Source of the DNA: Xenococcus sp. MO_188.B8
Lineage (GTDB): Bacteria > Cyanobacteriota > Cyanobacteriia > Cyanobacteriales > Xenococcaceae
DNA: 41,530 nucleotides
Assembly: GCA_030065615.1 (NCBI GenBank)
Contig: JASJDR010000059.1
Span: 1-41,530 of the forward strand
Direction of reading: 5' to 3'
Part shown: positions 1,399 through 29,561 of the stretch, piece by piece
Position numbering within the stretch: the stretch's first letter is position 1
How the letters are laid out: each line of letters opens with the position of its first letter
Position numbers and translations under genes: made by a program
Notes under the pieces: generated by a model
Database searches by the model: none
What the model was told of the DNA's origin: nothing
Seen by the model: only the letters and a program-made list of their open reading frames with translations

Positions 1399-4300
1399 CT
1401 AAATTACTCCCTCAACATACTCATCATACATTTGTTCATTTAATTTTGTTAACTCCTGGGATGAGCAATGAGCTATATCCAGATAATTAGCTAAACCCTT
1501 AATAGTTGGTGTTTCAAAGAGAATCTGAATTGGTAAATCGATTTGGAATATTTTCCGAAATCGATTTACCAATTGAGCAACTAATATAGAATTCCCCCCT
1601 AATTCAAAGAAATTATCATTTATACTCACCGAGGAAATATTAAGAACTTCTTTCCAGATAGAAGCAATTTGAAGCTCTATTTCAGTTTGAGGTACAATTG
1701 ATTCTTTTTCTTGGAAGTTGTGAAATTCTATTTGAATAGATTGTGCAAATTTTGCAAATTTTTCTAGTATTCGGTCTAATTCTCCTGCTTCTAAACTACT
1801 TTTGAGTTTCGATCTTTGAATCTTGCCGATAGAGGTTTTAGGAATCGTTTCTGAAGAAAGGGGAATAATGTAATCAGGATTTACTCCAAAGCTCTTGACA
1901 ATTTTGGAGCGAATCGTCTTAATTTGCTTTAATATTTCAGCATCTTCAGTTAAGGAAGAACTGAAAAAGATCGCAAGATGATCTGTTTGACTACCTGGAG
2001 GACGAACAGCACAGGCAGCAGTATAAGAATTTTGTACTCCTGCTAATTCCTCAACATTAGCTTCTATTTCATGATTAGCATAGTTAAGTCCATTGATAAT
2101 AATGATTTCTTTCGCTCGCCCTGTTAGAGTAAGCCTTCCGTCTTGCAAAAATCCTAAATCTCCAGTGTTAAACCAACCATCGGAGGTAAATACTTCGGCG
2201 TTCATTTCAGGATTATTATAATAACCTACCATAACCATTGGGCCTTTAACTTGTACTCGACCAATCTGATTTTCTAGTAAAACTTGGTTATTCTCATCAG
2301 TAATTCTGAAAGAAACTTCAGGAATAGGCTTCCCTAGATCGACAAAGGTATTTTGGGCGGTTTTCGGGGTAAAACTATTAGCACAAACAACACCTGAAGC
2401 AATTTCTGTCATACCCCAATCAGGATACAAAGAAGTTGATGGTAGCTTATGAAAGCCTAATAAATCGAGAAAATTCTTTGCTGTTTTTCCATCTATTGCT
2501 TCTCCTCCATTAAAAATACACTGCATCGAAGATAAATCCCAATGACCATCACGAATTTTTTCAGCTTGCTCATTAACTAATCTGTAAGCAAAATTAGGTG
2601 CCCAAGTTACTGTTGCACGATAACGATCAATCCAATCTAGCCAGTTTAAAGGATTTTCTAGAACTAAGTGAGTTGGAGCATGAATTTGCTGACAACCTAA
2701 GTAAACATCCCTGAGATGGCACATTACTAGACTGGCAACATGATCCAAAGAAAACCAGTTTAAAGAAATATCTAGACTAGAAAAATCAAAATCTTTGGCT
2801 CGACCTTTGGCTCTACTTAAAATATTCTTATGACTTAATTGTACAGCTTTAGGCATTCCTGTGCTGCCAGAAGTCAATAACATTAATGTGACATCTTCAG
2901 GTTGGCTAGGATGATAGTTAACATCAGGTTCATTTTGACGTAGTTGATTAACATTAATAACTTGCCAATTTTCCAAGTTTAATTTTTGCGAGAGAGAATT
3001 AAGCTCATTAAACAAGCGTTCGCTACTTATAACAATCGGTTTTGACAGCATTTCCCAGGTATTTTTAAGCTTATTAACTGCACTATTAACTTCTTGATAA
3101 GTTGAGGATACAGCTAAAGAAACAGGAATAAATCCACCAAGAATACATCCCCAAAAAGTAGGAACAAAATCTTGATTAAGCTCAAGTTGGAGAATTACTT
3201 TATCTTGGGGTTTTAAACCTGATTTTCTTAATCCAGCTAGAATAACTTGTGCTTGTGCAAGCAAATCTGAATAACGTTGATCGATCTCTAAACCATTTGA
3301 TTGAAGATAAACAATCGTCTTTTCTGGATTTTGCTTAACAGTTTGTTGTAATGCTTCAATTAAAGTTTTAGGTGTATTCGGATCTTCCAGCAATGATTCA
3401 GCATGACTAATTGCTAGTTTTTGTTCAGATGGTAAGAATGGATCGAAATGGATAAATTGATCGAGTTGTTGTTTAATCTGATTTAAGTCACGGGGTTGAG
3501 ATGTAGGACGGAATAACCCGTCAGTATTCCACTTAGCCGGATCTAGACTAATTCCCCAAGCATTTAACCAAGGTGATTCAGGGAAATTTGCTAATTGTTC
3601 GGGCATAGTATCTTCTAGAGCTAATAAAAAGATAACTTGAGCCAGTTCTTCAAACATTTTTAAGCTGATAGCGTAATCTTGAATCAGTTCTGGTAAAGTT
3701 TTTCCTGATTGCAGATTTCGTGTTCTCAACTCTCGTACAAATTCTATTTTTAGGTAATCTATAAACTCGAAGCTTCCTCGCCTTTGAGAGCGAATTGACC
3801 AATCTCTGAATAGTTCCTGTATGCGGTGGTTGAGAAGAAAAAAGCGCCCTGAACTTTTAAGGACGTTAGAGTATTTTTGAGCATCAAGAAAAATTGGATT
3901 GAATATTAAGGGAGTATTGAAAGCCCAACCTATTAATGTATCCCAAATAACTTTTAGTGATAAGACCAATGGATTATCAAAGCATTCATAGACATTTTGA
4001 ATGTTTGCTGTTGCCCCCTCGTTGTAGACCAAGATGAAATTGTTGGCATAATCTACCATTTCTTGGGTTAATTTTCCTTGCAGATCCCTCTCAATCATCC
4101 AAGTTACGAAGGAATTGGTAAAACCGATTAAATCGGTTCCTGGTGAATAAAATGGATCAGGAAAAACACCTGCTTCTCCCACACAAGCCCAACGATTTAC
4201 CGAAAAAACTTGAGTCGAAGAATAACTATATTTAGGCATCTTCATAAATTTTTGAGGTTGGTAAGAGCGTAAGTGATCTGCCAATATAGGTTCGTATTGT

Positions 4301-5256
4301 TGTAACCAGTCGAAAGATTTTTCATAAGTATTGAGTTTGCTAAAAGAGTGAACATCTCCATCAAAGACGATTCCAATACTGGTATGGTTGGATGGTAACG
4401 GAATCAACCAAATCCAGTAACCTTTCCCACAAAGGTGATTGGTAGAGTAGTAGCGCTGATGAGAAGGAACGCGATCGTGCCACTCTTGGTTTGTAGCGGA
4501 AACAAAATTACTCACATCTATTCTTTTATTAATCCAAAACCACACAGCATTATATTTAGGATTATTAGGTTTAGCCAAATCTAATTGCTTTTGCAAGAAT
4601 CTACGGCGGCCTGTTGCATCAATAACCCATAAAGCTTGAATAATTCCGGTTTCTTTCGTTTTAACTTGAGTATAGACAATTTGGTGTAGTTTTTCTCTAT
4701 AGTCTGTCAGTTCAATACTTTTGATTTGGCAATTTTCTATGAGTCTAATTCCCGATTGAATATTAAACTCCCAAAGATCATTTTCTAGTTTACCCCTATC
4801 AATTTGGTAGGAGGAAATGGTCGGGAATTCTGATATTCCTAATTCTGGTCTTTCCTCGAAAGGTTTTTGAGCATCTCCTAAAAAATATCTTAGACCTAAC
4901 TTTGGCAAGTGGTACTGCTTGAAATAGTCAGCTAATTGGAGAGTTTCTGATAGGTAGTAAGCACCAAGTTCTACAGTTGACTCTCCTACCTTAATTGCAG
5001 ATTCCGGGAGAGGTCGTGAGAACCGATCAAGAACAACAATTGAAAGATTAGGAATATTTTGTTTTAATTGTCTGGCTAAGGTTAAACCTGCCAATCCACC
5101 TCCACATATAGCAACATCGTAAACTTTCTGTTGAGTTTTAGTAAAATCAAGTTTTGTATTTAATTCTAAATTCATTGCTTTTTTAGTACGCGAGGTTTTT
5201 CTTTTAATACATCTTAGTCCAAGGTTTAAAGGTTCGATTGCCGCTAAATCTGACAT
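1399..5256 (-). CDS. Halogenase - AMP ligase - carrier protein fusion enzyme
   Basis: A 1285-residue three-part enzyme. Residues 47-600 are a flavin-dependent halogenase: FAD motif GGGLAG (52-57), active-site Lys89 next to GEST (91-94), the halogenase signature WIWLIP (281-286) and a second FAD-contact stretch GEAGVFPDPFYSPGTD (360-375). Residues 620-1150 are an acyl- or aryl-adenylating AMP ligase with TSGSTG (795-800), a TGDLG motif and a lysine-containing IPKTSIGKIQR end. Residues 1160-1250 are a carrier domain with Ser1223 in LGGNS. The expected chemistry is activation of a carboxylic acid, loading onto the carrier arm, and halogenation in cis or of a tethered intermediate. Met28 (5175) is an alternative start closer to the FAD domain. 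The partner carrier protein is at 1-248. The substrate cannot be read from the sequence. Confidence 0.88.
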   Translation of the reverse strand: MSDLAAIEPLNLGLRCIKRKTSRTKKAMNLELNTKLDFTKTQQKVYDVAICGGGLAGLTLARQLKQNIPNLSIVVLDRFSRPLPESAIKVGESTVELGAYYLSETLQLADYFKQYHLPKLGLRYFLGDAQKPFEERPELGISEFPTISSYQIDRGKLENDLWEFNIQSGIRLIENCQIKSIELTDYREKLHQIVYTQVKTKETGIIQALWVIDATGRRRFLQKQLDLAKPNNPKYNAVWFWINKRIDVSNFVSATNQEWHDRVPSHQRYYSTNHLCGKGYWIWLIPLPSNHTSIGIVFDGDVHSFSKLNTYEKSFDWLQQYEPILADHLRSYQPQKFMKMPKYSYSSTQVFSVNRWACVGEAGVFPDPFYSPGTDLIGFTNSFVTWMIERDLQGKLTQEMVDYANNFILVYNEGATANIQNVYECFDNPLVLSLKVIWDTLIGWAFNTPLIFNPIFLDAQKYSNVLKSSGRFFLLNHRIQELFRDWSIRSQRRGSFEFIDYLKIEFVRELRTRNLQSGKTLPELIQDYAISLKMFEELAQVIFLLALEDTMPEQLANFPESPWLNAWGISLDPAKWNTDGLFRPTSQPRDLNQIKQQLDQFIHFDPFLPSEQKLAISHAESLLEDPNTPKTLIEALQQTVKQNPEKTIVYLQSNGLEIDQRYSDLLAQAQVILAGLRKSGLKPQDKVILQLELNQDFVPTFWGCILGGFIPVSLAVSSTYQEVNSAVNKLKNTWEMLSKPIVISSERLFNELNSLSQKLNLENWQVINVNQLRQNEPDVNYHPSQPEDVTLMLLTSGSTGMPKAVQLSHKNILSRAKGRAKDFDFSSLDISLNWFSLDHVASLVMCHLRDVYLGCQQIHAPTHLVLENPLNWLDWIDRYRATVTWAPNFAYRLVNEQAEKIRDGHWDLSSMQCIFNGGEAIDGKTAKNFLDLLGFHKLPSTSLYPDWGMTEIASGVVCANSFTPKTAQNTFVDLGKPIPEVSFRITDENNQVLLENQIGRVQVKGPMVMVGYYNNPEMNAEVFTSDGWFNTGDLGFLQDGRLTLTGRAKEIIIINGLNYANHEIEANVEELAGVQNSYTAACAVRPPGSQTDHLAIFFSSSLTEDAEILKQIKTIRSKIVKSFGVNPDYIIPLSSETIPKTSIGKIQRSKLKSSLEAGELDRILEKFAKFAQSIQIEFHNFQEKESIVPQTEIELQIASIWKEVLNISSVSINDNFFELGGNSILVAQLVNRFRKIFQIDLPIQILFETPTIKGLANYLDIAHCSSQELTKLNEQMYDEYVEGVI

Positions 5257-5568
5257 ATATCTATGCGTGTTTATAGAATGCGAGCGAGAATACCCTCACC
5301 CTTCAGGGTGAAGGGATGATAGCGAGCCGAGATTTTTTTGCTAAAGCAGGAAAATCTTCATCGAAAAAAACCCAGAGTATTGTATAATCATCTTGCCCTA
5401 CAAAAAGCGAAAACCAAGCGGTAGGCAATAGTACTTTGAAAACTGAAGATAGAGGGTTCTGTACAGAAGGGCTTGTACAGGTAAAATCTTCAAGCAGCAT
5501 GGTTAGAGACATTTTTTGGTTTCACGCCCTGGGTCGGGCTGACCCGAACGGGCTAGTTGCAAAACTAG
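5257..5568. other. Intergenic region upstream of the halogenase fusion
   Basis: No convincing gene. A 69-codon open frame on the minus strand (5303-5512) has no recognisable family and looks fortuitous. The stretch contains a small hairpin, CCCTTCAGGGTGAAGGG (about 5298-5314). It probably carries the promoter of the fusion gene, but no clear promoter elements stand out. Confidence 0.4.
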
Positions 5569-5667
5569 CGTAAAGCTTGTGGCTCGACCTCTGGCGGGGA
5601 TGTGTTTTCAGCATTGCTGTTCTCATCTAGTCAAGTCGGGTTGAAGCAAGAAGCTCTCATGCCATAA
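5569..5667 (+). pseudogene. C-terminal remnant of an IS605-type TnpB
   Basis: A short plus-strand frame reads RKACGSTSGGD and then SSSQVGLKQEALMP before TAA at 5665. The Cys-Gly-poor tail ending in a VGLKQE-type stretch directly before the element's right-end hairpin is how many TnpB genes of the IS605/IS1341 group end. Everything upstream of the tail is lost. Its value is as a boundary marker: just to the right begins the high-GC gene block. Confidence 0.45.
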
Positions 5668-5689: not shown

Positions 5690-6847
5690 TCACCTCCCAT
5701 TGACTAATCTACGAACCTTAATGTTCTTCATGATCTCTTGATAGTTGATAGTCCCTAGTCCGAGGAGCGCAAGCGTGCGGTAGATATCATCAATTAGGAG
5801 GTCGATCAGGTGCGATGGACCGGCACTGCCGAAGGCTGCAACCGCGTAAAGAAACGGTCGTCCGAGAAGCACCAGGTCAGCACCAAGCGCAATTCCCTTA
5901 ACAACGTCCTCGCCTGACCTTATTCCGCCGTCAAGGAGAATTGAGAGTTTTTCTCCTACAGCAGATCTGATCTCGCCTATCACTTCAGCCGGTGCTGGCG
6001 CAGCGTCAAGTTGGCGACCACCATGATTGGAGACAATAATGCCATCGATTCCGAGCGAGACAGCGTGCTCAGCGTCGCGCGGATCGAGGATTCCTTTTAG
6101 GACAAAATGTCCAGGCCAACATTCCCGCAGCTGGGCAAGAAACGTCCAGTCCAATCGACCGCCCGTCTGTAGCGCCATTATTTTCGAGAAAGTCCGGATG
6201 TCTTGAGGTACATGAAGATGAGGTTCGAGATTCGCGAAGCGGGGGATCCCTCCTCGGACTAAGCCCCACAACCATCTCGGTCGAGTCACTAGATAGAGGA
6301 GCGAGGATGGATTCAATCGGAACGGTGGGCAAAACCCGTTTCGCAGATCACGTGGTCGCAGACCAGGCACTGGCATATCGAGCGTAACTACAAGTACGGG
6401 ACAGCCAGCCGCTCTTGCCCGCTTCACGAGCGAGTTAGTAATATCCTCGTCTGAGCTACTATAGAGCTGAAACCAGGGGAGATGTCCCGTGCCCTCAGCA
6501 ATGTCTTCAATCGTGGTCGTACTTGTTGTCCCGTTGATGTATGGAATGCCTGCGGTGCTAGCTGCTTTTGCGATAGCGAGATCTGCTCCTTGAGAGACGA
6601 GATTACAAAGTCCCATTGGTGCAACACCGAACGGTGCCTGATAATTAGTGCCGAAAAGCGAGACCCCGATATCCTTTGGCATCGCACCGGTGGCGACTCT
6701 CGGAATAAGTTGGATCGACCGAAACGAGGCGACATTTCTCTTAAGAGCAGTTTCTGTGCCCGCACCTCCATCTATGAAGTCGAAGACCATTTTCGGAATA
6801 CGCCGCATTGCTATAAGTCGCATTTCTTCGGTTGTAGCAGCTAGCAT
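5690..6847 (-). CDS. FMN-dependent alpha-hydroxy acid dehydrogenase/oxidase
   Basis: A 385-residue TIM-barrel flavoenzyme of the LldD, glycolate oxidase and mandelate dehydrogenase family, full length for the family. Visible residues include the catalytic His275 and Arg278 in SNHGGRQLD, Lys251 in LKGI, the phosphate-binding DGGIRSG (306-312), GADLVLLGRPF and Tyr129 in FQLYS. It should oxidise a 2-hydroxy acid to the 2-oxo acid, passing electrons to FMN. The substrate is unknown; lactate or a mandelate-like aromatic hydroxy acid are possible. Its GC content is clearly higher than the chromosomal genes around it, suggesting transfer. It is transcribed divergently from the VOC gene at 7119 and may share a pathway with it. 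The stop is 13 bases from the IS605 end. Confidence 0.88.
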   Translation of the reverse strand: MLAATTEEMRLIAMRRIPKMVFDFIDGGAGTETALKRNVASFRSIQLIPRVATGAMPKDIGVSLFGTNYQAPFGVAPMGLCNLVSQGADLAIAKAASTAGIPYINGTTSTTTIEDIAEGTGHLPWFQLYSSSDEDITNSLVKRARAAGCPVLVVTLDMPVPGLRPRDLRNGFCPPFRLNPSSLLYLVTRPRWLWGLVRGGIPRFANLEPHLHVPQDIRTFSKIMALQTGGRLDWTFLAQLRECWPGHFVLKGILDPRDAEHAVSLGIDGIIVSNHGGRQLDAAPAPAEVIGEIRSAVGEKLSILLDGGIRSGEDVVKGIALGADLVLLGRPFLYAVAAFGSAGPSHLIDLLIDDIYRTLALLGLGTINYQEIMKNIKVRRLVNGR

Positions 6848-7118: not shown

Positions 7119-7625
7119 ATGGAAAATCACCCAGAGGCTCTAGGCTACATTGAAGACCTAGTAGAGAACATCGATCACGTAGCAGTCGCAGTTGAAAATA
7201 TCGATGAGGCGATTAGATGGTACAGCGATGGTCTCGGCTTTAGGCTTGTCGAGCGTAGAATGACTCGGGGCGATTCTACGGCAATGGTCTCAGCGGTTAT
7301 GAGATCGAGAGGTGCGCTCGTCATTCTTGTTCAAGGACTGACACCGGAATCGCAAGTGAGCCGATTCATCGAACACTTCGGACCAGGAGTGCAACACATA
7401 GCCTTGGCTGTAACGGACATTGATAAGGCTGTGGCTCGGCTCCACGCTGCCGGTGGAGATACCGATGTGGAAATGATCGAAGAACCTGGTATTCGTCAGA
7501 GCTTTCTCCGCCGCGATTCTAGAACAGGTGTCCGTGTGGAGTTGATTGAGCGAAGCGGTGGTAGGTTCACCGACCGTTCGGTAGAGAGTTTATTTCGCGC
7601 TTTAGAAAGCCAGGACTTATATTGA
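7119..7625 (+). CDS. Single-domain VOC (glyoxalase/HPPD-like) metalloprotein
   Basis: A 168-residue vicinal-oxygen-chelate protein with two beta-alpha-beta-beta-beta modules. The first starts NIDHVAVAVENIDEAIRWYS and the second starts GPGVQHIALAVTDID. The metal triad His20, His93 and Glu141 is complete and matches the ligand pattern of methylmalonyl-CoA epimerases and of the C-terminal half of 4-hydroxyphenylpyruvate dioxygenase and hydroxymandelate synthase. It is half the length of those dioxygenases, so an epimerase, isomerase or small oxygenase role is likelier. It diverges from an alpha-hydroxy acid dehydrogenase, which recalls the hydroxymandelate synthase/oxidase pairing in 4-hydroxyphenylglycine biosynthesis, but that is only an analogy. 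GC is higher than in the flanking chromosome. Confidence 0.82.
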   Translation: MENHPEALGYIEDLVENIDHVAVAVENIDEAIRWYSDGLGFRLVERRMTRGDSTAMVSAVMRSRGALVILVQGLTPESQVSRFIEHFGPGVQHIALAVTDIDKAVARLHAAGGDTDVEMIEEPGIRQSFLRRDSRTGVRVELIERSGGRFTDRSVESLFRALESQDLY

Positions 7626-7981: not shown

Positions 7982-8731
7982 TTATTTCTGTCGTTGACTT
8001 CCAGTATCAAGATAGACCAGAGGGCACCCGACGCGAGCAAAAGCCGTCATTCGTGGGAGCTCTTCCTCAAAAAAGCCTTGCTCGATCATCCAGAAAACAT
8101 CGGCGTTCGGCCCCGGATATACATCTACAACTCCGTCCTTAAGATGGTAATAAGTGTGGATGATAACCGGTATTTCGCATAAAAAGAATCTTGCGTAGCG
8201 ATCCAGAGTAACTTTGTCTCGAGGCTTTTTTAAAACGGTAATATGCCTTCTTATTTCGGACCAGAAAGCTCCCTGTTGCTGATAACCCATGGCTACTTCC
8301 TCTTTCATCCAATCCGGAGTTGCGGCGGAGATTTTAGACCAGTTGATCAGGTTCACATTCTGGCTCTTGGTTCCTCGGATCACCTTTTCTGCTTTCCGTG
8401 TTACTTCCCTCGAGAGTTGGTGGATCTTTTCAGATTCATGAGCAGGTAACTCATCCATAGCTAGCTCTGCCATCCGGTTGTAAAGATATGGCTCGTCAAC
8501 TGCACAGATCAATCCCCGGTGACCACCCCCATCGCATATATTCACAAACCATTTGATATAATCCCGGGTAAACTTGCGATTTTTAATGCTGATGAAGAGG
8601 CAGAACAAGCGACCCTCGAATACCTCATGGTCCCAGCAGTTGGTCAGGGTACAGCTTAGTCCTCCGAACTCAAGGTTTTTCGCTAAGACAATGGGAGAAT
8701 CAGCTCGGCGGGGATCTCGACATTCTGGCAT
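7982..8731 (-). CDS. Divergent cyclodipeptide synthase (CDPS) homologue
   Basis: A 249-residue protein that follows the CDPS Rossmann-like layout from end to end. FISIKN carries the expected nucleophilic serine (Ser48, AlbC Ser37). Next come a strand and acidic turn (LICAVDEPYLYN), the long helices, RFFLCEIP (Glu186, equivalent to AlbC Glu182) and DVYPGP (Tyr205-Pro206, equivalent to AlbC Tyr202 and the Pro of the XYP subfamily). The AlbC Tyr178 position is Phe182 here, which is unusual. CDPSs take two aminoacyl-tRNAs to make a cyclic dipeptide, so tRNA-dependent amide formation is the expected chemistry. ATG with TAGGAG eight bases upstream. Third gene of a minus-strand operon after the racemase-like gene, 31 bases away. 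The family assignment rests on motif order; activity is inferred. Confidence 0.72.
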   Translation of the reverse strand: MPECRDPRRADSPIVLAKNLEFGGLSCTLTNCWDHEVFEGRLFCLFISIKNRKFTRDYIKWFVNICDGGGHRGLICAVDEPYLYNRMAELAMDELPAHESEKIHQLSREVTRKAEKVIRGTKSQNVNLINWSKISAATPDWMKEEVAMGYQQQGAFWSEIRRHITVLKKPRDKVTLDRYARFFLCEIPVIIHTYYHLKDGVVDVYPGPNADVFWMIEQGFFEEELPRMTAFARVGCPLVYLDTGSQRQK

Positions 8732-8762
8732 TAGACAACTCCTATTTTCTCTGTAGTTAGAA

Positions 8763-9506
8763 TTAAAGATGCGATAATAGTTGTTCTAGGCACTGGGGTT
8801 CTGGGGACTCACTTCCATGAATTCGACTTGGATATATATGACAATTTAAGCTTACGTCTGCGACATATTCTGCCCACTTAAATGGAATCAACAGCGGATC
8901 GACGACAGGAACACCTAAAGCGTCTTGAAGCCTTTCACTATACTTATCAGCTGCTGTACAACCCAAAACTATAACTTCTGCATTATCTTTTTCGATTGCT
9001 TTTTTTCCACCCCCAAGCATTTTCGAAAAGGATAATTCAACATTCTTTTCCATGTCTTCCACGCATAAATCAAGACTTTGGATCGATGCTAAACTACTTG
9101 ACATACCGTAACTTAAAATATTTTCTTTTATTCTCGGTATCCATTTGCTCCTTCCCACCAGTACTGAGTAATTATTTCCAAGCGTCAACGCCAAGGACAA
9201 ACTGGATTGGCATGGGCCTACTACATGCATATTGCCCGATACCTCTCTCGCGGCTCGAAGGCCTACGTCATAAAAGCAGCCGATAATGGCAGCACTGACG
9301 CCGTCCTCAGCAATCTCTTTGATTACTTTTACCAGATAAGGGACAGCAAAAGCTTCATAACTTGCGTATTCTAAGTTCCTAATTTGTAGTTCCTTCAACG
9401 AAATAATATCTATCACGGTTTCTGCTCGCTTGACGGAGCATAAACGTTGAAGAATCGAAGAGTCGTATTGATCGTCACCTACTGGGTTTATCCAAACTAT
9501 TTTCAT
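8763..9506 (-). CDS. Asp/Glu/hydantoin racemase-family protein
   Basis: A 247-residue member of the cofactor-independent two-cysteine racemase family. Both catalytic cysteines are present: Cys77 in AAIIGCFYDVGLRAAREV and Cys183 in VIVLGCTAAD, each in the duplicated half-domain expected for aspartate/glutamate/hydantoin racemases. It would invert the alpha-carbon of an amino acid, hydantoin or cyclic dipeptide-like imide by two-base proton transfer. Its ATG directly follows the TAG of the upstream PP-loop gene, with GGGGAGG a few bases upstream, so the two are translationally coupled. Between a PP-loop enzyme and a CDPS homologue it may set the stereochemistry of their product. Substrate unknown. 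Confidence 0.85.
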   Translation of the reverse strand: MKIVWINPVGDDQYDSSILQRLCSVKRAETVIDIISLKELQIRNLEYASYEAFAVPYLVKVIKEIAEDGVSAAIIGCFYDVGLRAAREVSGNMHVVGPCQSSLSLALTLGNNYSVLVGRSKWIPRIKENILSYGMSSSLASIQSLDLCVEDMEKNVELSFSKMLGGGKKAIEKDNAEVIVLGCTAADKYSERLQDALGVPVVDPLLIPFKWAEYVADVSLNCHIYPSRIHGSESPEPQCLEQLLSHL

Positions 9507-10742
9507 CTAAATACAACCTCCCCGGCGAGCAAGATTCTCATACGGCATCCTGTATTGGACTATCTCTGTCTCCTTCGCTTTGCGCAATTGGTATTGGAGT
9601 AAGACATGGTGAAGTGCATCCACGAGATCATCACGGCCCTGATCGGTAAGCAGAGGGATCAGGCTCTGAAAATATTGAAATAAATAATCGTGGCCATCCA
9701 GCATCTTCCATTGATCTATGGTAAGGACAAGATCGGCATCCACATAATCTCTCGGAAAGGCTTGACAACCTTTCAGCTTTCCCAAAGCAAGAAGCGCGGT
9801 CATGGTTTCGATACACTTTTCACAGGTGCCGCAGTTATTGGTTCCACTTGAATCGTTCTGGCAGACACGGATACTATGCAGGCCGGCTGGCCATTCCGCG
9901 ACCAGCGATGTCTTGCTGATGCGAGACATGAATAAACCTTGATGTACACAGTCAATGTAAGCGCTACTGAAATTCGGTTCAAGCTGGGGGTGAGATCCCC
10001 ACGCCCACGGTTCTGGCGGGCTAACACCGTATACTGAGGACGCTATGTAACCTTTGAGAAAATGCCGACTAAAGAACGTGGCGACGGAGCAAAGTACGGC
10101 ACCTTGCCACTTCTTGTCAAAGAAGTATCCGTCATCAACCAACCACCAAAGATTGGTTCGCACATTTACATGGTCAACCTCGGCGTCGTCGATAGCAGCC
10201 TGCACGGCAAGCCTCCTACCGCGGGTTTTCAAATCATACCGGGTAAGTGACATGACTTCGTCTTCGTCAAAGGCAATCGAGACAACCCCATGAATCGAAC
10301 CAGGGTGATCCGAAGGTATGTATAATTTGTTCCATCGTAGTATCGACAGTGAATCGATTCCGCCGGAGAACAAGGATAATGATTGCTGCCCGAAAGGTTT
10401 TAGCACTTCGAGTCCAAGTGACGGCTCAATCTGGGGTGGATCGCCAAATTCTTCTGGATTCCATGACTTAATCACACCAAATACGGTCTGGAGATTGTGC
10501 GCCAGAACAGGACAGATTGAACCCTCAATCCACACTCGCTGCTCTCCGAAGCGCCAGGCAGGCAACACACATACTATAAGGAAGGCGTTGGGGTCCGGCC
10601 ATAGCTTGTCAGCGTACCTTTCTTCGACATCAACAAACAGAGTTAATGGCAAGCGGTCTGCGTCTTCCCAATTGACTGTTGCGTGCACCCGCTTTATGCC
10701 GTTTTCATTGCGGATTCCTAGATTAGAGATTCTCATGCTCAT
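9507..10742 (-). CDS. QueC-like PP-loop ATP pyrophosphatase/adenylating enzyme
   Basis: 411 residues. The ATP-binding PP-loop SGGIDS is at 126-131, after an N-terminal region of about 115 residues that ordinary QueC lacks. A zinc-type cluster Cys294-x9-Cys304-x2-Cys307-x2-Cys310 closely matches the spacing in QueC (7-cyano-7-deazaguanine synthase). QueC-like proteins adenylate a carboxylate and convert it to an amide or nitrile, or ligate it to an amine. Nothing else of the queuosine pathway is nearby, so a biosynthetic or modification role is likelier than tRNA modification. First gene of the operon. The start ATG at 10742 overlaps the stop of an IS607 remnant as ATGA; Met3 at 10736 is an alternative. 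GC is higher than the chromosome. Confidence 0.75.
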   Translation of the reverse strand: MSMRISNLGIRNENGIKRVHATVNWEDADRLPLTLFVDVEERYADKLWPDPNAFLIVCVLPAWRFGEQRVWIEGSICPVLAHNLQTVFGVIKSWNPEEFGDPPQIEPSLGLEVLKPFGQQSLSLFSGGIDSLSILRWNKLYIPSDHPGSIHGVVSIAFDEDEVMSLTRYDLKTRGRRLAVQAAIDDAEVDHVNVRTNLWWLVDDGYFFDKKWQGAVLCSVATFFSRHFLKGYIASSVYGVSPPEPWAWGSHPQLEPNFSSAYIDCVHQGLFMSRISKTSLVAEWPAGLHSIRVCQNDSSGTNNCGTCEKCIETMTALLALGKLKGCQAFPRDYVDADLVLTIDQWKMLDGHDYLFQYFQSLIPLLTDQGRDDLVDALHHVLLQYQLRKAKETEIVQYRMPYENLARRGGCI

Positions 10743-10846
10743 CGTCCCGATGGAGCTCTTTTAGCTGGCAACTTTCCTGTTTCATCCCATCGATGAAGGG
10801 TTTTAACGCTGATTCCGACTCGTTTGGCAAATTCTTCTGGTCGCAT
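10739..10846 (-). pseudogene. Truncated IS607-type serine recombinase (TnpA), MerR-like HTH only
   Basis: A 35-codon frame reads MRPEEFAKRVGISVKTLHRW and then DETGKLPAKRAPSGR before TGA. This is the MerR-like DNA-binding head that starts IS607 TnpA resolvases, cut at SGR where intact proteins continue into RYY and the recombinase domain. The stop overlaps the start of the PP-loop gene (ATGA), so the cargo operon joins exactly at this point. The little HTH peptide could still be translated and could couple translation to the operon. Confidence 0.65.
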
Positions 10847-10859
10847 TTCCCTGTTTTCC

Positions 10860-10874
10860 TTGACATAATGTCAA
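10860..10874. promoter_or_regulatory. Perfect palindrome upstream of the operon (IS607 end)
   Basis: TTGACATAATGTCAA is a palindrome apart from its centre base. It lies 14 bases upstream of the truncated IS607 tnpA and is probably its terminal recombination/binding site. It now sits in the leader of the PP-loop operon and could act as an operator. Confidence 0.45.
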
Positions 10875-10953
10875 ACATTGTACAGCTTTGTTTATTAAAA
10901 TCTCTTTCACACAGCTTAATATAGTTTTTTAGATTTTGACTACATACTATATT

Positions 10954-11013: not shown

Positions 11014-11292
11014 CTATAGTGTTACCGGACCGGAGGAACTAGGGATTTCAACAGCAAACAATCGATTCAATCGATTCAATCTGCTCGCACTATTCGGATA
11101 TAATTCTTGAGCCCGCAATATTATATCTCGAATTTGATCCTCACGATTGCAGATATCTCCTCCTTGCTCACCGCAGAAATCTTCATTCAGAAATCTAATA
11201 AGATCTTCCGCACTCTGCCCTCCTTCTACTTTTTCTAGTTCAACCTCTGTTAAATCTTGTAGGTTCTCTAAATCTTGGATTTTAAGATTCAT
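11014..11292 (-). CDS. Putative RiPP/bacteriocin-type precursor with Gly-Gly leader
   Basis: 92 residues. The first 25, rich in Glu and Leu (LTEVELEKVEGG, Gly24-Gly25), form a classic double-glycine leader. A 67-residue tail follows with just two cysteines (Cys40 and Cys48 in FCGEQGGDIC), many Arg/Asn and a small-residue end (SSSGPVTL). AAGGAG lies about eight bases before the ATG. No family is recognised for the tail. It is on the same strand as, and 271 bases upstream of, the PP-loop/racemase/CDPS operon, so those enzymes could act on it or on its processed product. No C39-peptidase exporter is visible in the window. The leader is clear; the function is inferred. Confidence 0.65.
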   Translation of the reverse strand: MNLKIQDLENLQDLTEVELEKVEGGQSAEDLIRFLNEDFCGEQGGDICNREDQIRDIILRAQELYPNSASRLNRLNRLFAVEIPSSSGPVTL

Positions 11293-11916: not shown

Positions 11917-12132
11917 TTAAAGATTCACTAGTTCTATTACTCCATCACCTGTCAAGTCAGAATCTAGCGCATCAAATACAGTAATACCAGAATCACCACA
12001 ATTAAGCCATTTGTGTCTACCTTTACCCCAACGTCTTCCTAAATCTCTGCCTCTACCTCTACCACCTACAACATGATTTAATTCATCAAGAGATAAAGCT
12101 TCCAACGTTTCAATGTCTTTTAGGTTACTCAT
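11917..12132 (-). CDS. Second Gly-Gly leader peptide, basic core with a calcium-loop-like tail
   Basis: 71 residues from the ATG at 12132, chosen because GAGGAGG lies just upstream; an in-frame start 13 codons earlier has no such site. The leader (MSNLKDIETLEALSLDELNH, then VVGG) ends in Gly-Gly. The mature part starts with a very basic run (RGRGRDLGRRWGKGRHKW), has a single Cys, and ends with DSDLTGDGVIELVN, which looks like a dockerin/EF-hand Ca-binding loop. Cyanobacteria often carry families of such GG-leader peptides, exported and cut by C39-peptidase ABC transporters. I do not recognise the core. The modifying enzyme is not evident. Confidence 0.65.
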   Translation of the reverse strand: MSNLKDIETLEALSLDELNHVVGGRGRGRDLGRRWGKGRHKWLNCGDSGITVFDALDSDLTGDGVIELVNL

Positions 12133-12224
12133 AGGAACCTCCTCAAAAACCAACAATACATTTGTATACAAATCATAAATCTAGATAGTAAATTCCTTTA
12201 TTAAATTTAGTAAAACCCATCAAA

Positions 12225-12533: not shown

Positions 12534-13445
12534 ATGAAACATTACTTTTACAAAATACTAGGTATCAGCATTCTGGGATCGATATTGCCTCTATGCTTAC
12601 AACTTCCCACTCAAGCAGAAACAACTATTGAACGCATTGAGCGCACAGGAGTTATGCGGGCTGGAGCATGGCAAGATGCTAAACCTTTCGGCTATATCAA
12701 TGAAAATGATGAATGGGTAGGCTATGGCATCGATATGCTAACGGTGATTCAAAGTCAACTGGAAAAAGCTTTAAAACAATCAATCAAACTGGAACTAGTA
12801 GAAGCTAATACCGAAAATCGCTTTGATCTGATAATGAATAATCAGGTAGATATTTCTTGTGGCCCTACCAGTTTTACTTGGAATCGAGAAAAATACATAG
12901 ATTTTTCCCTGAGCTATTTCGTTACTGGAACTCAATTTCTTGTCCCCAAGGGCAAAAAGCTAGATTCTCTGGAAGATTTACGTGGCTTAGGTATTGGCGT
13001 TGAAGCAAATACTACCAATGAGGCTATACTCAAAGCTTGGGATTCTCAACTTAATTTAATCCCAGTAGCAAATCGTAGCGATGGCATAGCCCAATTGCAA
13101 GCAGGGAAAATTGATATTTATGCCAGCGATGGGATTCTTTTAGAGGCACTAAAAGCAACTGCAAATAAACCTAATGCTTGGGAAATTATTCCCAAAGATG
13201 ATTTAATTAATCGCGAATCTTATGCCTGTTTGTTACCGGAAAATGACTCCCAATGGAGGGATTTTGTGAACTACAGTATTCTGCGAGCAATTCAAGGTTA
13301 TCTTATTGACGATCCTGAATTTAAACAGATGTATGACCAGTGGTTTGGTGAAGCTGGTGTTGTGCCCTATTCCCCAGAAGTATTAACAGAACACTTTCGA
13401 GGTATTGTTGATTCAGTAGAAAGGATACCGACAACAGCATTTTAA
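12534..13445 (+). CDS. grrP: GrrP: secreted solute-binding protein of a Grr peptide locus
   Basis: 303 residues with a Sec signal peptide (hydrophobic core about residues 6-22, cleavage near TQA-ET) followed by a full SBP_bac_3 (PBP type 2) fold. Recognisable segments include GYINENDEWVGYGIDML, RFDLIMNNQVDISCGPTS and REKYIDFSLSYF. Such proteins bind amino acids or similar small ligands in the periplasm. No permease or ATPase partner is present. Its gene instead overlaps the radical SAM maturase by one base (TAATG), the arrangement known for GrrP in Grr peptide systems. It may bind the modified peptide or sense a ligand; its role there is not established. Confidence 0.85.
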   Translation: MKHYFYKILGISILGSILPLCLQLPTQAETTIERIERTGVMRAGAWQDAKPFGYINENDEWVGYGIDMLTVIQSQLEKALKQSIKLELVEANTENRFDLIMNNQVDISCGPTSFTWNREKYIDFSLSYFVTGTQFLVPKGKKLDSLEDLRGLGIGVEANTTNEAILKAWDSQLNLIPVANRSDGIAQLQAGKIDIYASDGILLEALKATANKPNAWEIIPKDDLINRESYACLLPENDSQWRDFVNYSILRAIQGYLIDDPEFKQMYDQWFGEAGVVPYSPEVLTEHFRGIVDSVERIPTTAF

Positions 13446-14659
13446 TGATGGCACAACAATTAATTCCAGAGTCTTGTCATAATGACAAACTTACTGAACT
13501 CAACAAACTAAACCTACCAGATATTAATTCATTTGGGCCACTACGCTTAGTAATCATCCAAGCAACACCCTATTGTAATCTCGATTGTGACTACTGTTAT
13601 TTACCCGATCGCTCTAACAAAAAGCAATTATCTCTAAAACTAATAACCCCCATTTTCCACAGGCTCTTAACCAGTTCTTTTGCCAAGAATGCTTTCACTG
13701 TTTGCTGGCATGCTGGAGAACCGCTTACTGTTCCGTTGAGCTTTTATCAATCAGCTTTTGAGATCATTAAAAACTTAGAACTGAAAATTTCACCTCAAAA
13801 CCCTAAAATAACCTATTCTATTCAAACTAATGGGATATTAATCAATCAAGCATGGTGTGATTTATTCAGGCAATATCCCGTGAAAATTGGTGTCAGCTTA
13901 GATGGGCCAGCTTTTATCCACGATAGTCACCGTAAAACTAGAACTGGATTGGGCAGCCATGCAAGCACAATGAAAGGGATTAAGTTACTTCAACAAAATA
14001 AACTAGATTTTCAGATTATTGCAGTAGTAACAGCCAAATCTCTAGATTATCCCGATGAAATTTTTCAGTTTTTTCGTGACCATAATATTAATCGAGTAGC
14101 TTTTAATATTGAAGAAGTTGAAGGAATTAACCGTGATTCTTCCCTTAAACTCAATGACCATAGAAAGCGATTTCAGTCTTTTTTTCAAAGATTTTGGGAA
14201 TTAACAATAGCTACCCAAGGGGCTTTTCAAGTACGAGAGTTTGAACAAATTAGCTCCTTAATTCTTACAGGACAATCAAGAAGACAGAATCAGTTATCTC
14301 ATCCTTTCTCAATTATTAGTATTGATACCCAAGGAAATTTTGCTACTTTTTCACCAGAATTATTGGCAATGCCTAGTAAGGATTATGGTGATTTTATCTT
14401 AGGTAATTTGCAACAGGATTCTTTGGAATCTGTCTGTACAACCAAAAAATTTCAACAAATTTACCATGATATTTTTCAAGGAGTAACCCAATGTCAGAAT
14501 GATTGTGAATATTTTAGTTTATGTGGTGGAGGTGCTCCCAGTAATAAATATTGGGAGAATAATACTTTTGCCAGCACAGAAACCATGGCCTGTCAATATA
14601 ATAAGCAAATTATTGCTGATATTGTCTTACAAGGTATCGAATATTATTTAGGACTATAA
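13445..14659 (+). CDS. grrM: GrrM: radical SAM/SPASM cyclophane peptide maturase
   Basis: 404 residues. The radical SAM cluster Cys44-x3-Cys48-x2-Cys51 lies in TPYCNLDCDYCYLP, followed by the SAM-binding region (CWHAGEP, QTNG, GVSLDGP). The C-terminal SPASM-type cysteines are Cys350, Cys354, Cys360 and Cys383. Members of the GrrM/OscB group make carbon-carbon crosslinks between an aromatic residue and the residue two positions later (three-residue cyclophanes). The likely substrate is the gene directly downstream, which is full of Phe-X-Asp. The start overlaps grrP; the second ATG at 13448 is equally possible. Confident in class, and fairly confident in the Grr assignment because grrP and the repeat precursor flank it. 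Confidence 0.87.
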   Translation: MMAQQLIPESCHNDKLTELNKLNLPDINSFGPLRLVIIQATPYCNLDCDYCYLPDRSNKKQLSLKLITPIFHRLLTSSFAKNAFTVCWHAGEPLTVPLSFYQSAFEIIKNLELKISPQNPKITYSIQTNGILINQAWCDLFRQYPVKIGVSLDGPAFIHDSHRKTRTGLGSHASTMKGIKLLQQNKLDFQIIAVVTAKSLDYPDEIFQFFRDHNINRVAFNIEEVEGINRDSSLKLNDHRKRFQSFFQRFWELTIATQGAFQVREFEQISSLILTGQSRRQNQLSHPFSIISIDTQGNFATFSPELLAMPSKDYGDFILGNLQQDSLESVCTTKKFQQIYHDIFQGVTQCQNDCEYFSLCGGGAPSNKYWENNTFASTETMACQYNKQIIADIVLQGIEYYLGL

Positions 14660-14696
14660 ATTAGGACTATAAATATTTATAAAAAAGCAACTTAAC

Positions 14697-15026
14697 ATGA
14701 AAATAACTACTAAAATAGGCTATCTTGGATTATTAATTATTCTGGCATCTTTGGATACTACTGTGGCAGAAGCTAAAGTAGCTCAAACTCCTCAAACAAT
14801 CTCAGAACGTTTAACTAAAATTCAACAAAAACTTCAAGTCAACCGTCAAAAATTAGCAAATGTTAATCCAGAAAATATTGATGCTATTGACGCTGAATTA
14901 CTAACAATTTTTGGAGATTTTGCTGATTCTCCTCTCTTTGGAGACTTTGGTGATGCGCCTATAATCGCACCTTTCGGGGATTTTGCCGATTCACTTCCTT
15001 TTGGAGATTTTGCTGATGCATGGTAA
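14697..15026 (+). CDS. grrA: GrrA-like precursor with FGDF(A/G)D repeats
   Basis: 109 residues. A signal-peptide-like start (residues 7-26, GYLGLLIILASLDTTVAEA) is followed by a charged helical spacer (ISERLTKIQQKLQVNRQKL). The core tail carries four near-identical blocks: FGDFAD (72-77), FGDFGD (81-86), FGDFAD (93-98) and FGDFAD (102-107), ending in Ala-Trp. Each block holds two Phe-X-Asp tripeptides, giving eight possible three-residue cyclophanes. It lies 37 bases after grrM. Typical GrrA cores are glycine-rich with other X3 residues, so this acidic F-x-D version looks like a variant. Export by Sec after modification is inferred from the signal-like N-terminus. Confidence 0.82.
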   Translation: MKITTKIGYLGLLIILASLDTTVAEAKVAQTPQTISERLTKIQQKLQVNRQKLANVNPENIDAIDAELLTIFGDFADSPLFGDFGDAPIIAPFGDFADSLPFGDFADAW

Positions 15027-26390: not shown

Positions 26391-26427
26391 TTGACACTCC
26401 CCATGTCTAAAGGCGAGGGGATTCTTG
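26391..26427 (-). mobile_element. IS605/IS1341 right end with hairpin (omega RNA scaffold)
   Basis: On the minus strand it reads AAGAATCCCCTCGCC, a loop, then ATGGGGAGTGTCAA, the standard right end of TnpB-bearing elements. It overlaps the 3' end of tnpB (which stops at 26407), as expected for the omega RNA. Confidence 0.75.
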
Positions 26428-27708
26428 GCTCAACGAGTCTCCGTTAGACGGCAGGCTTGCGCCAACTGCCCAAGAGGGAGTCTCTCCCCAAGCGTAGATT
26501 CCTGTATGCCCTACAGTATTTAATCCTCTTCGCAGGATATTGATAGCAGCATTAACATCTCTGTCCTCGAGATACCCACACTCGCAAACATGAGTTCTTG
26601 TAGAAAGAGATTTTTTGACTACAGCACCACAGTTAGAGCAAATTTGGCTGGTATGGTGCGCTGGTACTGCTACTGTCGCTTTCCCATACTTGTGTCCAAA
26701 ATATTCTAACCATTGCCTAAAGGTTGACCATCCTGCATCAGTTATCGACTTAGCTAATTTTCGATTTCTAACCATGCCTTTGACATTTAAGTCTTCATAG
26801 GCGACCAAATCGTTAGACTGGATTACGCAGTATGCTGCTCGTTTGCAATACTCTTGACGCTGCCTACTTACTCTTAAATGCTTCCGTGCATATTTATTTC
26901 TAGCTTTGTGATAATTAGAAGATTGCTTTTTACCTTTTTGATACTTTTTGGACTTTTTCCTATTAGCTCTACTTAGCTGCTTTTCCGCTTTCCTGTAAAA
27001 TTGAGGAATTGGCTCTAAATGTCCGTTTGAGTCGGCATAAAATTCTTTTAGCCCAACATCAATTCCTAAACATTTTTGAGTAACAGGAAAAGGTTTTACT
27101 GTATCTTTAGGGTCTAATTTTAAAACAAACTGAACATAGTATCCATCAGCACGCTTGATGATCCTACATCTTTTGAACTGCTCTAATTGAAAATAGTTTA
27201 AATCCCTGCTAACAATTAACTTGACTGTTCCGATCCCCTTTTTATCGGTAAAAGTTATACGTTTTCTATCCTCAGAAAGCTTCCATCCAGAAACTTTATA
27301 CTCGACAGAACGTGAGTGTTTCTTGAATTTAGGGTAACCCTGTCTTGGTGCGCTACCAGATGCGTCTTTCGCCGCCCTAACCCTAAAGGGTACCCCTTCG
27401 GATAAGGATACCGCTCCGCATAACGCGGGGTCTCGACGCTTCTGGCAATTATCAAAAAAGCGACTGATACTCGACAACGTTCTTTCAACAGCGCATTGTG
27501 TCGCATGAGAGTTTAAGTCTCTTACAAACTGATACTCTTTTCTGAGTTGAGTATTGTATTTGTAGATGTCGTATTTTCCTACACCACGATTATCCATCCA
27601 ATAACGAAGACATTTGTTTCGGACGAATTGTGCCGTTTTGATTGCCTCGTCTATAGCTAGACATTGATGGGGTTTTGGGTTACGAACTTTAAACTCTAAA
27701 ACAAACAT
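26407..27708 (-). CDS. tnpB: TnpB RNA-guided nuclease of a solo IS605/IS1341 element
   Basis: 433 residues. All catalytic parts are present: RuvC Asp217 (GIDVGLKEF), Glu305 (AYEDLNV), zinc finger Cys357/360/375/377 (CSNCG ... CECG) and Asp384 (DRDVNAA). The N-terminal wedge is recognisable. There is no tnpA next to it, so it moves only in trans if at all. Residues about 92-123 (RDPALCGAVSLSEGV... through SAPRQ) interrupt the usual CQKR-GYPKFKK junction. This 96-base insert is dispersed-repeat DNA that keeps the frame open. TnpB cuts DNA guided by the omega RNA from the element's right end, favouring its retention. It lies directly downstream of ureC. Confidence 0.92.
   Translation of the reverse strand: MFVLEFKVRNPKPHQCLAIDEAIKTAQFVRNKCLRYWMDNRGVGKYDIYKYNTQLRKEYQFVRDLNSHATQCAVERTLSSISRFFDNCQKRRDPALCGAVSLSEGVPFRVRAAKDASGSAPRQGYPKFKKHSRSVEYKVSGWKLSEDRKRITFTDKKGIGTVKLIVSRDLNYFQLEQFKRCRIIKRADGYYVQFVLKLDPKDTVKPFPVTQKCLGIDVGLKEFYADSNGHLEPIPQFYRKAEKQLSRANRKKSKKYQKGKKQSSNYHKARNKYARKHLRVSRQRQEYCKRAAYCVIQSNDLVAYEDLNVKGMVRNRKLAKSITDAGWSTFRQWLEYFGHKYGKATVAVPAHHTSQICSNCGAVVKKSLSTRTHVCECGYLEDRDVNAAINILRRGLNTVGHTGIYAWGETPSWAVGASLPSNGDSLSQESPRL
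27340..27435 (-). repeat. Palindromic repeat inserted in frame in tnpB
   Basis: 96 bases (32 codons) rich in CCTTCGG and CCGCTCC palindromes, related to the repeats at 24471 and 31090-31170 (shared CGCGGGGTC-type stretch). TnpB proteins usually go straight from CQK(K/R) to GYPKFKK here. Confidence 0.6.
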
Positions 27709-27848: not shown

Positions 27849-29561
27849 TCAAAATAAGAAATAACGCTGTGCCATGGGTAAAACCTTGGCAGGTTCGCAG
27901 GTTAGTAGTTCCCCATCTGCTCTTACCTCATAGGTTTCGGGATTGACTTCTATATTGAATAAAGCATCATTTAATTTCATATCTGTTTTACTGATATTGC
28001 GAGTCTTACTAACAGCAACTGCAGGGGTTTTGAGCCCAATTTGTTCGGGGATTCCTGCCTCTAGTGACGCTTGGGAGACAAATGTTAAAGAGGTCGTGGA
28101 AGTTGCGCCACCAAAGCTACCAAACATGGGACGCATATACACTGGTTGGGGAGTTGGAATACTCGCATTGGGATCGCCCATTTGCGACCAGGCGATCGCG
28201 CCCCCTTTAATGACAATTTCTGGTTTGACCCCAAACATAGCTGGTTTCCAGAGGCAGATATCGGCTAGTTTGCCTGATTCAATGGAACCAACATAATCGG
28301 CAATACCATGCATAATAGCGGGATTAATGGTGTATTTGGCGATGTAGCGTTTAGCGCGGAAATTATCGGCTACTTCCTCTGTAGGAGCAGATAAAACGTC
28401 TCTTTGTACTTTCATTTTGTGAGCGGTTTGCCAAGTACGAATAATTACTTCTCCCACTCTACCCATGGCTTGAGAATCAGAGGCGATCGCGCTAAAGGCG
28501 CCCAAATCGTGTAAAATATCTTCGGCGGCAATTGTTTCTTTGCGGATTCTAGACTCGGCAAAGGCTACGTCTTCGGGAATGCTTTTATCGAGATGGTGAC
28601 ACACCATTAACATATCGAGATGTTCTTCTAAGGTGTTAACGGTAAAGGGACGAGTCGGGTTAGTCGAAGAAGGTAAAACGTTACTCAAGGCGCAGACCTT
28701 AATAATATCTGGTGCATGTCCCCCTCCTGCACCTTCGGTATGATAGGTATGAATTACTCGGTCTTTAAAAGCAGCGATCGTATTTTCCACAAAACCAGCT
28801 TCATTGAGGGTGTCGGTATGGATCGCTACCTGCACGTCATATCGATCGGCAACACTAAGACAAGTATCGATCGCAGCGGGAGTTGTTCCCCAATCTTCGT
28901 GCAGTTTTAAACCCATGGCCCCAGCTCGAATTTGTTCTGCTAATCCTTCTGGTTGGGCACTATTACCCTTGCCCAAAAAGCCTAAATTCATTGGAAAAGC
29001 CTCGGCAGCTTGTAGCATCATCCAGATATTCCACGCTCCAGGAGTACAGGTAGTAGCATTCGTACCCGTTGCTGGCCCGGTACCTCCGCCGAGCATGGTG
29101 GTAATCCCAGAAGCGATCGCCGTTTCGATTTGTTGGGGGCAAATAAAGTGAATATGGCTATCGATGCCTCCTGCCGTAACAATATGTCCTTCCCCGGCAA
29201 CCGCTTCGGTAGCGGGACCAATAATAATATCGACGTTATCTTGAATATAGGGATTACCCGCTTTGCCAATTTTATAGATCTTGCCGTCTTTAATCCCAAT
29301 ATCGGCTTTAACTATTCCCCACCAGTCGAGAATTAATGCGTTGGTAATCACCATATCTACCGCACCGTCTTCCCGGGATATGGGAGATTGTCCCATGCCA
29401 TCGCGGATTACTTTGCCCCCACCAAACTTAACCTCGTCACCGTAGCTAGTACAATCCCGTTCTACCTCGATAAATAATTCCGTATCTGCCAAACGAACGC
29501 GATCGCCTACTGTGGGTCCAAAGGTATCGGCATAGGCCCGTCGATCCATACGATAACTCAT
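27849..29561 (-). CDS. ureC: Urease alpha subunit
   Basis: 570 residues, full length. Nickel ligands and catalytic residues are all visible: His136 and His138 (SHIHF), the carbamylated Lys219 (GLKLHEDWG), His248, His274, the flap Cys321-His322 and Asp362. It hydrolyses urea to ammonia and carbamate in the cytosol once assembled with UreA and UreB and loaded with nickel. It is unusual in being last in the cluster, after ureF, and not next to ureB; a tnpB element sits 140 bases downstream. Confidence 0.97.

Follow-up and report, generated by a model that had tools for sequence, protein, structure and literature searches.

We describe here a group of five genes on contig JASJDR010000059.1 of the cyanobacterium Xenococcus sp. 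MO_188.B8. The window, i.e., the whole stretch of DNA that was analyzed (41,530 nucleotides), is contig C321 within an assembly of 8.26 Mb (GCA_030065615.1), and it contains a minus-strand operon encoding a PP-loop protein, a racemase-family protein, and a remote homologue of the cyclodipeptide synthases (CDPSs). The initial annotation, made from the sequence alone, covered this three-gene operon; a five-gene, foreign-looking island around it emerged in the present analysis and also includes genes for a flavin mononucleotide (FMN)-dependent 2-hydroxyacid oxidase and a VOC protein. The features of the locus, in window coordinates, are as follows.

5402 to 5652: dispersed repeat at one edge of the island, with complete or partial copies on seven further contigs of this genome
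5653 to 10743: island of higher GC content (coding GC, 0.41 to 0.53)
5690 to 6847, minus strand: FMN-dependent 2-hydroxyacid dehydrogenase/oxidase of the lactate oxidase, mandelate dehydrogenase, or 4-hydroxymandelate oxidase type
7119 to 7625, plus strand: single-domain VOC protein, 168 residues, with H20, H93, and E141 in metal-ligand motifs
7982 to 8731, minus strand: remote CDPS homologue, 249 residues, with S48, F182, E186, and Y205-P206
8763 to 9506, minus strand: Asp/Glu/hydantoin racemase family protein, 247 residues, with cysteines C77 and C183
9507 to 10742, minus strand: PP-loop ATP pyrophosphatase of predicted QatC/QueC fold, 411 residues, with SGGIDS and a zinc-type Cys cluster
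10744 to 10899, minus strand: truncated IS607 left end that includes a TnpA stub and matches a fuller copy on contig C242 at 94% identity

The island and its edges

The operon runs from 10742 to 7982, over approximately 2.8 kb. The stop codon of the PP-loop gene abuts the ATG of the racemase gene, with 0 bases between them, and 31 bases separate the racemase gene from the CDPS-like gene; Shine-Dalgarno-like sequences lie 5' of the racemase gene (GGAGG) and of the CDPS-like gene (AGGAG). The three coupled genes of the initial annotation were recovered as minus-strand open reading frames (ORFs; 10742 to 9507, 9506 to 8763, and 8731 to 7982), and every motif and residue that it had named was found in place in the three proteins. 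All five frames of the island are open, and catalytic residues are retained where checked. Promoter and terminator scans of the island gave scores under the shuffle level, and no known RNA family reached its gathering score there.

The composition of the island is unusual for this window. GC content climbs from about 0.35 to between 0.41 and 0.54 in the region from approximately 5.4 to 10.8 kb, and outside the island coding GC lies between 0.34 and 0.42 for 10 of the 11 other window genes measured, the exception being the urease alpha subunit gene (0.47). At third codon positions (GC3), the values are 0.49 for the FMN enzyme, 0.47 for the VOC protein, 0.49 for the CDPS-like protein, 0.52 for the PP-loop protein, and 0.36 for the racemase.

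Both edges carry mobile DNA. Over 156 bases, the IS607 sequence shows 94% identity to the left terminus of the element on contig C242, which has a TnpA ORF (NF033518; 150.9 bits, positions 2 to 141 of 187) and a TnpB ORF and is perhaps itself cut. Because this identity runs to one base from the PP-loop ORF, the native upstream region of the operon has probably been replaced. The whole island was also considered as one IS607 element with cargo, and this was rejected: a left end was all that was found, and the rest of the C242 copy is unmatched between 4801 and 11400. As for the repeat at 5402 to 5652, most of its copies share the boundary at 5652, and it may be a non-autonomous mobile element.

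The three operon proteins

The racemase matches Pfam family PF01177 with an E value of 5.4e-27 (95.4 bits, against a gathering score of 31), and the two cysteines that the initial annotation had reported are borne out: C77 and C183 are placed like residues 75 and 179 of NozR and 79 and 184 of KpAllR. Its closest solved structures, of the allantoin/hydantoin racemase and OpaE types, are 3qvj (KpAllR, labeled a putative hydantoin racemase; E = 3.1e-14) and OpaE (9qbx; E = 3.5e-13). NozR, of the same family, is described in excerpts of PMC10156859 as inverting the CDPS product cyclo-(Trp-Trp) by means of Cys75 and Cys179, and OpaE, which epimerizes nonribosomal peptide products, as using Cys90 and Cys199 (excerpts of PMC12661438). 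The pairing of this racemase family with CDPS chemistry is already known, and in the organism of NozR the genes lie at separate loci, whereas the racemase and CDPS-like genes here are neighbors; NozR was compared by description only. The claim that the combination of families is undescribed can be kept in part: NozR already provides a case of a family member at work on the product of a CDPS, but our full-text literature search found no paper with both "cyclodipeptide synthase" and "QueC." One paper has both "cyclodipeptide synthase" and "hydantoin racemase," and in the accessible part of its text the clusters that contain those racemases have no CDPS (PMC11055893). Three plasmid-borne relatives of the racemase were read; two lie near hydantoinase-type genes (Parageobacillus and Natrononativus), and one lies near a sugar transporter.

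Sequence comparison makes the 249-residue protein a very distant homologue of the CDPSs in which one of the catalytic residues is replaced. The divergent homology that the initial annotation had proposed is backed by an hmmscan match of residues 35 to 194 to the tRNA-dependent cyclodipeptide synthase model of NCBIfam (TIGR04539; E = 5.7e-4), with a score of 19.5 bits against a curated cut-off of 45. Two negative results weigh against it: the Pfam CDPS model PF16715, which does match the cyanobacterial CDPS of genome G213 (42 bits), gave the 249-residue protein no match at an E value of ≤10, and a phmmer search of the PDB returned no CDPS at the same threshold. We also built a profile of ten CDPSs, namely, one Bacillales protein (identical letter for letter to BtCDPS in the PDB), the G213 protein, and eight proteins from plasmid records, two of which lacked annotation and entered as the matched stretch only; the 14 other plasmid records of the 22 matches, including all six from Staphylococcus and the Legionella record, were excluded. 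With filters off, the 249-residue protein scored 7.7 bits against this profile and the best of 5000 shuffles of its own sequence 5.3 bits, so that it beat 5000 of 5000 shuffles, which are a mild control. An hhalign comparison with the same profile gave a P value of 3.6e-4 and a probability of 37%, and BLASTP against BtCDPS gave an E value of 0.16 over a 35-residue piece only.

Six-frame scans with TIGR04539 were less informative. In 292 cyanobacterial genomes, there was one match over the cut-off, while the window scored 19.2 bits and a further match 15.7 bits; in 349 genomes of the phylum of Alcanivorax (G314), there were 0 over the cut-off and 4 weak partial matches (16.5 to 17.7 bits); and in 130 genomes of the order of Aquibacillus (G315), there was one over the cut-off and one weak match. 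PF16715 gave one weak match in the same 349 genomes. Among the genomes that hold PP-loop relatives, 25 were scanned and had no TIGR04539 match, but neither had any control. Scores of 17 to 19 bits in such scans are close to noise; therefore, the homology rests on the protein-level hmmscan match and the shuffles. CDPSs are known in cyanobacteria, e.g., in each of nine Roseofilum assemblies (PMC9967302, in the part consulted).

The alignment pairs S48 with the catalytic Ser, E186 with the catalytic Glu, and F182, four residues before E186, with Tyr178; N51 is also present. Y205-P206 lies past the aligned part, which ends at residue 193, and was placed by spacing, one residue short of BtCDPS. CDPSs are described as having S37, Y178, E182, and Y202 in common, with P203 marking the XYP enzymes (available text of PMC13062777). 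The 249-residue protein thus resembles the NYH and XYP enzymes, such as BtCDPS and AlbC, in its remotely homologous region, its nucleophilic Ser, and its Glu182 equivalent, and a Tyr-Pro pair, placed by spacing only, stands at nearly the right distance for the XYP type; unlike them, it has sub-cut-off scores, no close relatives that we found, and a Phe at the Tyr178 position, on account of which we do not class it as a true CDPS. The initial annotation had noted the loss of AlbC Tyr178 and read it as a sign of a new activity. The replacement is real; however, a Y178F change "substantially impairs" AlbC activity (PMC5935735, as far as its text was available), and Phe182 is therefore no less compatible with loss of activity than with a novel one. 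A single-sequence AlphaFold2 model had a predicted local distance difference test (pLDDT) score of 30.5, too low to read a fold.

The PP-loop protein had been labeled QueC-like. Its match to Pfam QueC (PF06508) has an E value of only 0.3 (11 bits, against a gathering score of 22), but its predicted fold backs the label. An AlphaFold2 model from 26 sequences (pLDDT, 86; predicted template modeling score, 0.86) has QatC as its best structural match (9y01_B; Z score, 14.2; root mean square deviation, 4.9; 300 residues; model range, 1 to 380), followed by QueC (3bl5; Z score, 11.9; model residues 119 to 322) and then by Cap9 and other PP-loop enzymes, and it agrees with the QatC layout of a QueC core extended at both termini; Foldseek alone found nothing for the model at an E value of ≤0.001, and the sequence profile of the family reached only 0.64 against QatC. 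The protein shares with QatC and QueC a predicted PP-loop Rossmann core, the SGGxDS motif (SGGIDS at 126), and a Cys-rich zinc-type motif (C294-x9-C304-xx-C307-xx-C310, i.e., C(x)9CxxCxxC, versus C(x)8CxxCxxC in QueC), and it has an HP motif in common with QatC. It differs in its neighbors, in its scores, and in its lack of signature motifs given in the accessible part of PMC13329287, namely, three of QueC (YxQxHxxE, VPxRN, and YPDC) and three of QatC (D(x)4R(x)7WxR, P(x)4TK, and C(x)19CGxCxxRR). The model supports the idea that the fold is the one used by QueC for the ATP-dependent activation of a carboxylate; QueC and Cap9 are described as activating a carboxylate and joining the product to NH3 or to a protein amine (excerpts of PMC13279940). 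The N-terminal 115 residues, which the initial annotation took to point to a new activity, most likely form a QatC-type extension and are probably not new: the 19 closest aligned relatives start at the same place, at Met3 of the protein, and in the model, the match to QatC has residues 1 and 380 as its outermost aligned residues.

A profile scan of GTDB contigs found 35 loci of this PP-loop family, in cyanobacteria and other bacteria. In the tree, the branch of the window protein has 1.96 changes per site, compared with 0.05 to 0.88 for its 20 companions at the fork (support, 91/87; the place of so long a row is unsure). The protein nevertheless keeps 49 of 60 near-invariant positions (82%), including the P-loop and the Cys residues, while leave-one-out controls keep 79 to 100%, and of the 19 relatives only L067 falls below it. 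A long branch with retained key residues would be expected of a recruited, still active enzyme.

Plasmids yielded 22 records by tblastn with the PP-loop protein, and phage records yielded no match. In four of the five plasmid loci read, a polysaccharide pyruvyl transferase gene adjoins the PP-loop gene or stands no more than two genes away; the remaining locus has flippase, glycosyltransferase, and O-antigen ligase genes around it. From 32 of the GTDB loci, 56 of 134 listed neighboring ORFs were scanned (one or two per locus, a few very short or long ORFs being passed over). Two polysaccharide flippase families have 10 matches apiece, which are probably to a large extent the same ORFs, and several glycosyltransferase families have 3 apiece; 4 ORFs are ABC transporters, Wzt_C has 3 matches, and other ORFs encode unrelated enzymes. 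Apart from any pathway, the protein thus reveals a family of predicted QatC-fold proteins, approximately 400 residues long and often encoded beside polysaccharide genes, whose members (window 9507 to 10742, L057 to L089, and L002 to L006) come from cyanobacteria, Desulfobacterota, Nitrospirota, and Alphaproteobacteria. The four members scanned are all below the Pfam QueC cut-off, and the one predicted fold is QatC-like. We did not meet the family in the accessible text of the 2026 survey of PF06508 (PMC13329287), where "polysaccharide" occurs 0 times. On a Priestia megaterium plasmid (L006, 7350 to 9963), two genes of the family stand in tandem, with a gene for a DUF6395 protein further along.

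The VOC and FMN genes and a possible joint pathway

The FMN enzyme has its nearest counterparts in lactate oxidase, (S)-mandelate dehydrogenase, and 4-hydroxymandelate oxidase. For the VOC protein, the HPPD and methylmalonyl-CoA epimerase models tie at 60 bits, under both cut-offs; the match to the 4HPPD profile covers positions 156 to 260 of 353 (cut-off, 277 bits). Its PDB matches are 6bu2, labeled glyoxalase (E = 4.6e-15), HPPD (E = 4.6e-12), and 2r5v, labeled PCZA361.1 (E = 6.9e-11), which we take to be hydroxymandelate synthase. H20, H93, and E141 are presumably the metal ligands of a VOC site, and such sites are shared by other VOC families. The protein may perhaps be hydroxymandelate synthase-like, and the pair of enzymes suggests a conversion of arylpyruvate to arylmandelate and on to arylglyoxylate. 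A likeness to the hydroxyphenylglycine pathway, with hydroxymandelate synthase and 4-hydroxymandelate oxidase, lies in the His, His, and Glu motifs, in the nearby FMN 2-hydroxyacid oxidase, and in VOC relatives beside nonribosomal peptide synthetase (NRPS)-type and aminotransferase genes in rhizobia and Vibrio; the differences are that there is one VOC domain here rather than two (approximately 350 residues), that methylmalonyl-CoA epimerase models are equally near, and that the island has neither an aminotransferase nor an NRPS gene.

At an E value of ≤1e-15, the VOC protein was found in none of 253 other cyanobacterial genomes. Five of the six plasmid VOC loci read contain NRPS-type genes, three of these with a pyridoxal phosphate-dependent aminotransferase and one with an aminotransferase class IV, a chorismate mutase, and a prephenate dehydrogenase. 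These five loci (L048 to L052; Vibrio europaeus, rhizobia, and Paraburkholderia) encode short VOC proteins beside the NRPS-type genes, an aminotransferase gene being present in four of the five, and the proteins are candidates for a single-domain hydroxymandelate synthase; at L050, the annotation of the ORF that contains the match is chorismate mutase.

The reading that we favor, tentatively and with a probability of about 0.38, is that the five genes form a mini-cluster, acquired by horizontal transfer, for the synthesis of a small amide, which would be an epimerized, possibly acylated cyclodipeptide or an aminoacyl amide. We infer the joint pathway of the five genes, with every substrate and every product, from the families and residues described above. 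The CDPS-like protein would load its Ser48 with an aminoacyl group taken from tRNA and use Glu186 and Tyr205 in forming a dipeptide or cyclodipeptide, a step that may be slow or altered in outcome with Phe182 in place of Tyr178. The racemase would then invert the alpha carbon of the ring by proton shuttling between C77 and C183, as NozR does. The VOC and FMN enzymes might convert an arylpyruvate via a 2-hydroxyarylacetate to an arylglyoxylate, and the predicted QatC-fold enzyme would adenylate a carboxylate, possibly that arylglyoxylate, and link it either to ammonia or to an amine on the product. If the cluster works, then tRNA-dependent amide formation, cofactor-free epimerization, and PP-loop carboxylate activation would be united in approximately 2.8 kb, and it would show whether the CDPS fold functions without Tyr178. 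A bolder version is a long shot: a tRNA-dependent pathway of a new type, in which a CDPS-derived enzyme without Tyr178, a diketopiperazine-type racemase, and a QatC-fold ligase stand in line; a single-domain hydroxymandelate synthase and the FMN oxidase would supply an arylglyoxylate, with which the ligase would cap the epimerized (cyclo)dipeptide. If true, this ligase would be the first QueC/QatC-fold amide ligase of small-peptide biosynthesis. As a whole, the reading of the initial annotation is partly supported: the homologies, the racemase, and the carboxylate-activating fold stand, but the novelty of the racemase pairing does not, and that of the N terminus probably does not.

Several results weigh against a working mini-cluster. 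When all five proteins were compared by tblastn (E ≤ 0.01) with 86 loci (91 minus five window copies), 0 of the 35 GTDB PP-loop loci included among them had a relative of the CDPS-like, racemase, VOC, or FMN protein, within flanks of ≤10 kb, with several loci cut by contig ends and distant homologues unseen. The initial annotation had regarded a lack of co-occurrence in other genomes as telling against it, and as far as searched none was found; the comparison is a weak one, however, as our searches did not turn up a single relative of the CDPS-like protein. That protein had none in 291 other cyanobacterial genomes, none in a pattern scan of GTDB contigs, and none in a pattern scan of viral contigs (nine stretches each); these scans use exact eight-residue stretches and miss relatives below roughly 60% identity, by our estimate. 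A plasmid search gave nothing beyond one match with an E value of 0.08. Around plasmid CDPS genes, no racemase is listed in the 6 annotated loci of eight fetched, within the 1.5- to 6-kb flanks shown. Moreover, PP-loop relatives are often found beside polysaccharide genes and not peptide chemistry, and the protein keeps fewer near-invariant positions than 18 of its 19 relatives, which would also fit decay. The VOC gene lies on the strand opposite to the operon, the arylpyruvate step is weak in that the glyoxalase 6bu2 outranks HPPD, no aminotransferase, transporter, or regulator is found among the island ORFs, and the GC3 of the racemase suggests that the parts may differ in origin. The finding is unusual, but it is a single case.

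Many of these points lead to a serious rival, unlikely in itself but close in standing to the mini-cluster, which is that unrelated foreign genes were assembled by chance between mobile elements. The PP-loop gene would be a stranded polysaccharide-locus gene on an IS607 stub, the racemase and CDPS-like genes would have arrived separately, and there would be no common product. The IS607 left end that halts one base before the PP-loop ORF, the repeat at the other edge, the polysaccharide neighbors of the PP-loop relatives, the deviant GC3 of the racemase, and a combination that recurs nowhere searched are all as such an origin would have them. Random debris, however, would be expected to have broken frames, whereas here all five frames are uninterrupted and those catalytic residues that were checked are retained, and spacings of 0 and 31 bases with good ribosome-binding sites also speak against a chance assembly.

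It is distinctly less probable that the 249-residue protein is a non-cyclizing aminoacyl-tRNA user of the same fold, which would move one aminoacyl group to an acceptor supplied by the PP-loop, VOC, and FMN enzymes to give a linear aminoacyl amide. Phe182 and profile scores far under the curated CDPS cut-offs would suit such an enzyme; however, Y205, the cyclization Tyr, and the Pro of the XYP enzymes are present, by spacing, and AlbC Y178F is already impaired in the first aminoacyl transfer, according to the available text of PMC5935735. Least probable by far is a QatC-type defense role, with the PP-loop protein modifying the N terminus of a partner protein, as is thought for QatC on QatB, rather than taking part in small-molecule synthesis: QatC is the best fold match over model range 1 to 380 and shares the HP motif, but most QatC signature motifs tested are missing, the sequence match to QatC is insignificant, the relatives often adjoin polysaccharide genes, and PADLOC, run on the three operon proteins only, gave no match, by which a defense system was rejected.

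Other features of the window

Upstream of the island in window coordinates, a minus-strand gene at 1399 to 5256 encodes a 1285-residue protein in which a flavin adenine dinucleotide/tryptophan halogenase-like part occurs together with an acyl-AMP ligase and a phosphopantetheine carrier domain. On the other side, the region from 12534 to 15026 (plus strand) holds a GrrM/OscB-type cyclophane radical S-adenosylmethionine gene, a precursor-like ORF with repeated FGDFAD units, and a solute-binding protein gene, and small minus-strand ORFs at 11014 to 11292 and 11917 to 12171 have stretches that by eye look like double-glycine leaders. A TnpB family protein encoded at 26407 to 27708 (minus strand) contains an odd in-frame stretch, RAAKDASG, which recurs on contig C258 (L043) in an ORF between two pieces of the 5402-to-5652 repeat. 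Finally, the Rfam 5' ureB small RNA was matched at 29120 to 29406 on the plus strand (126.8 bits), opposite to the urease alpha subunit gene (27849 to 29561).

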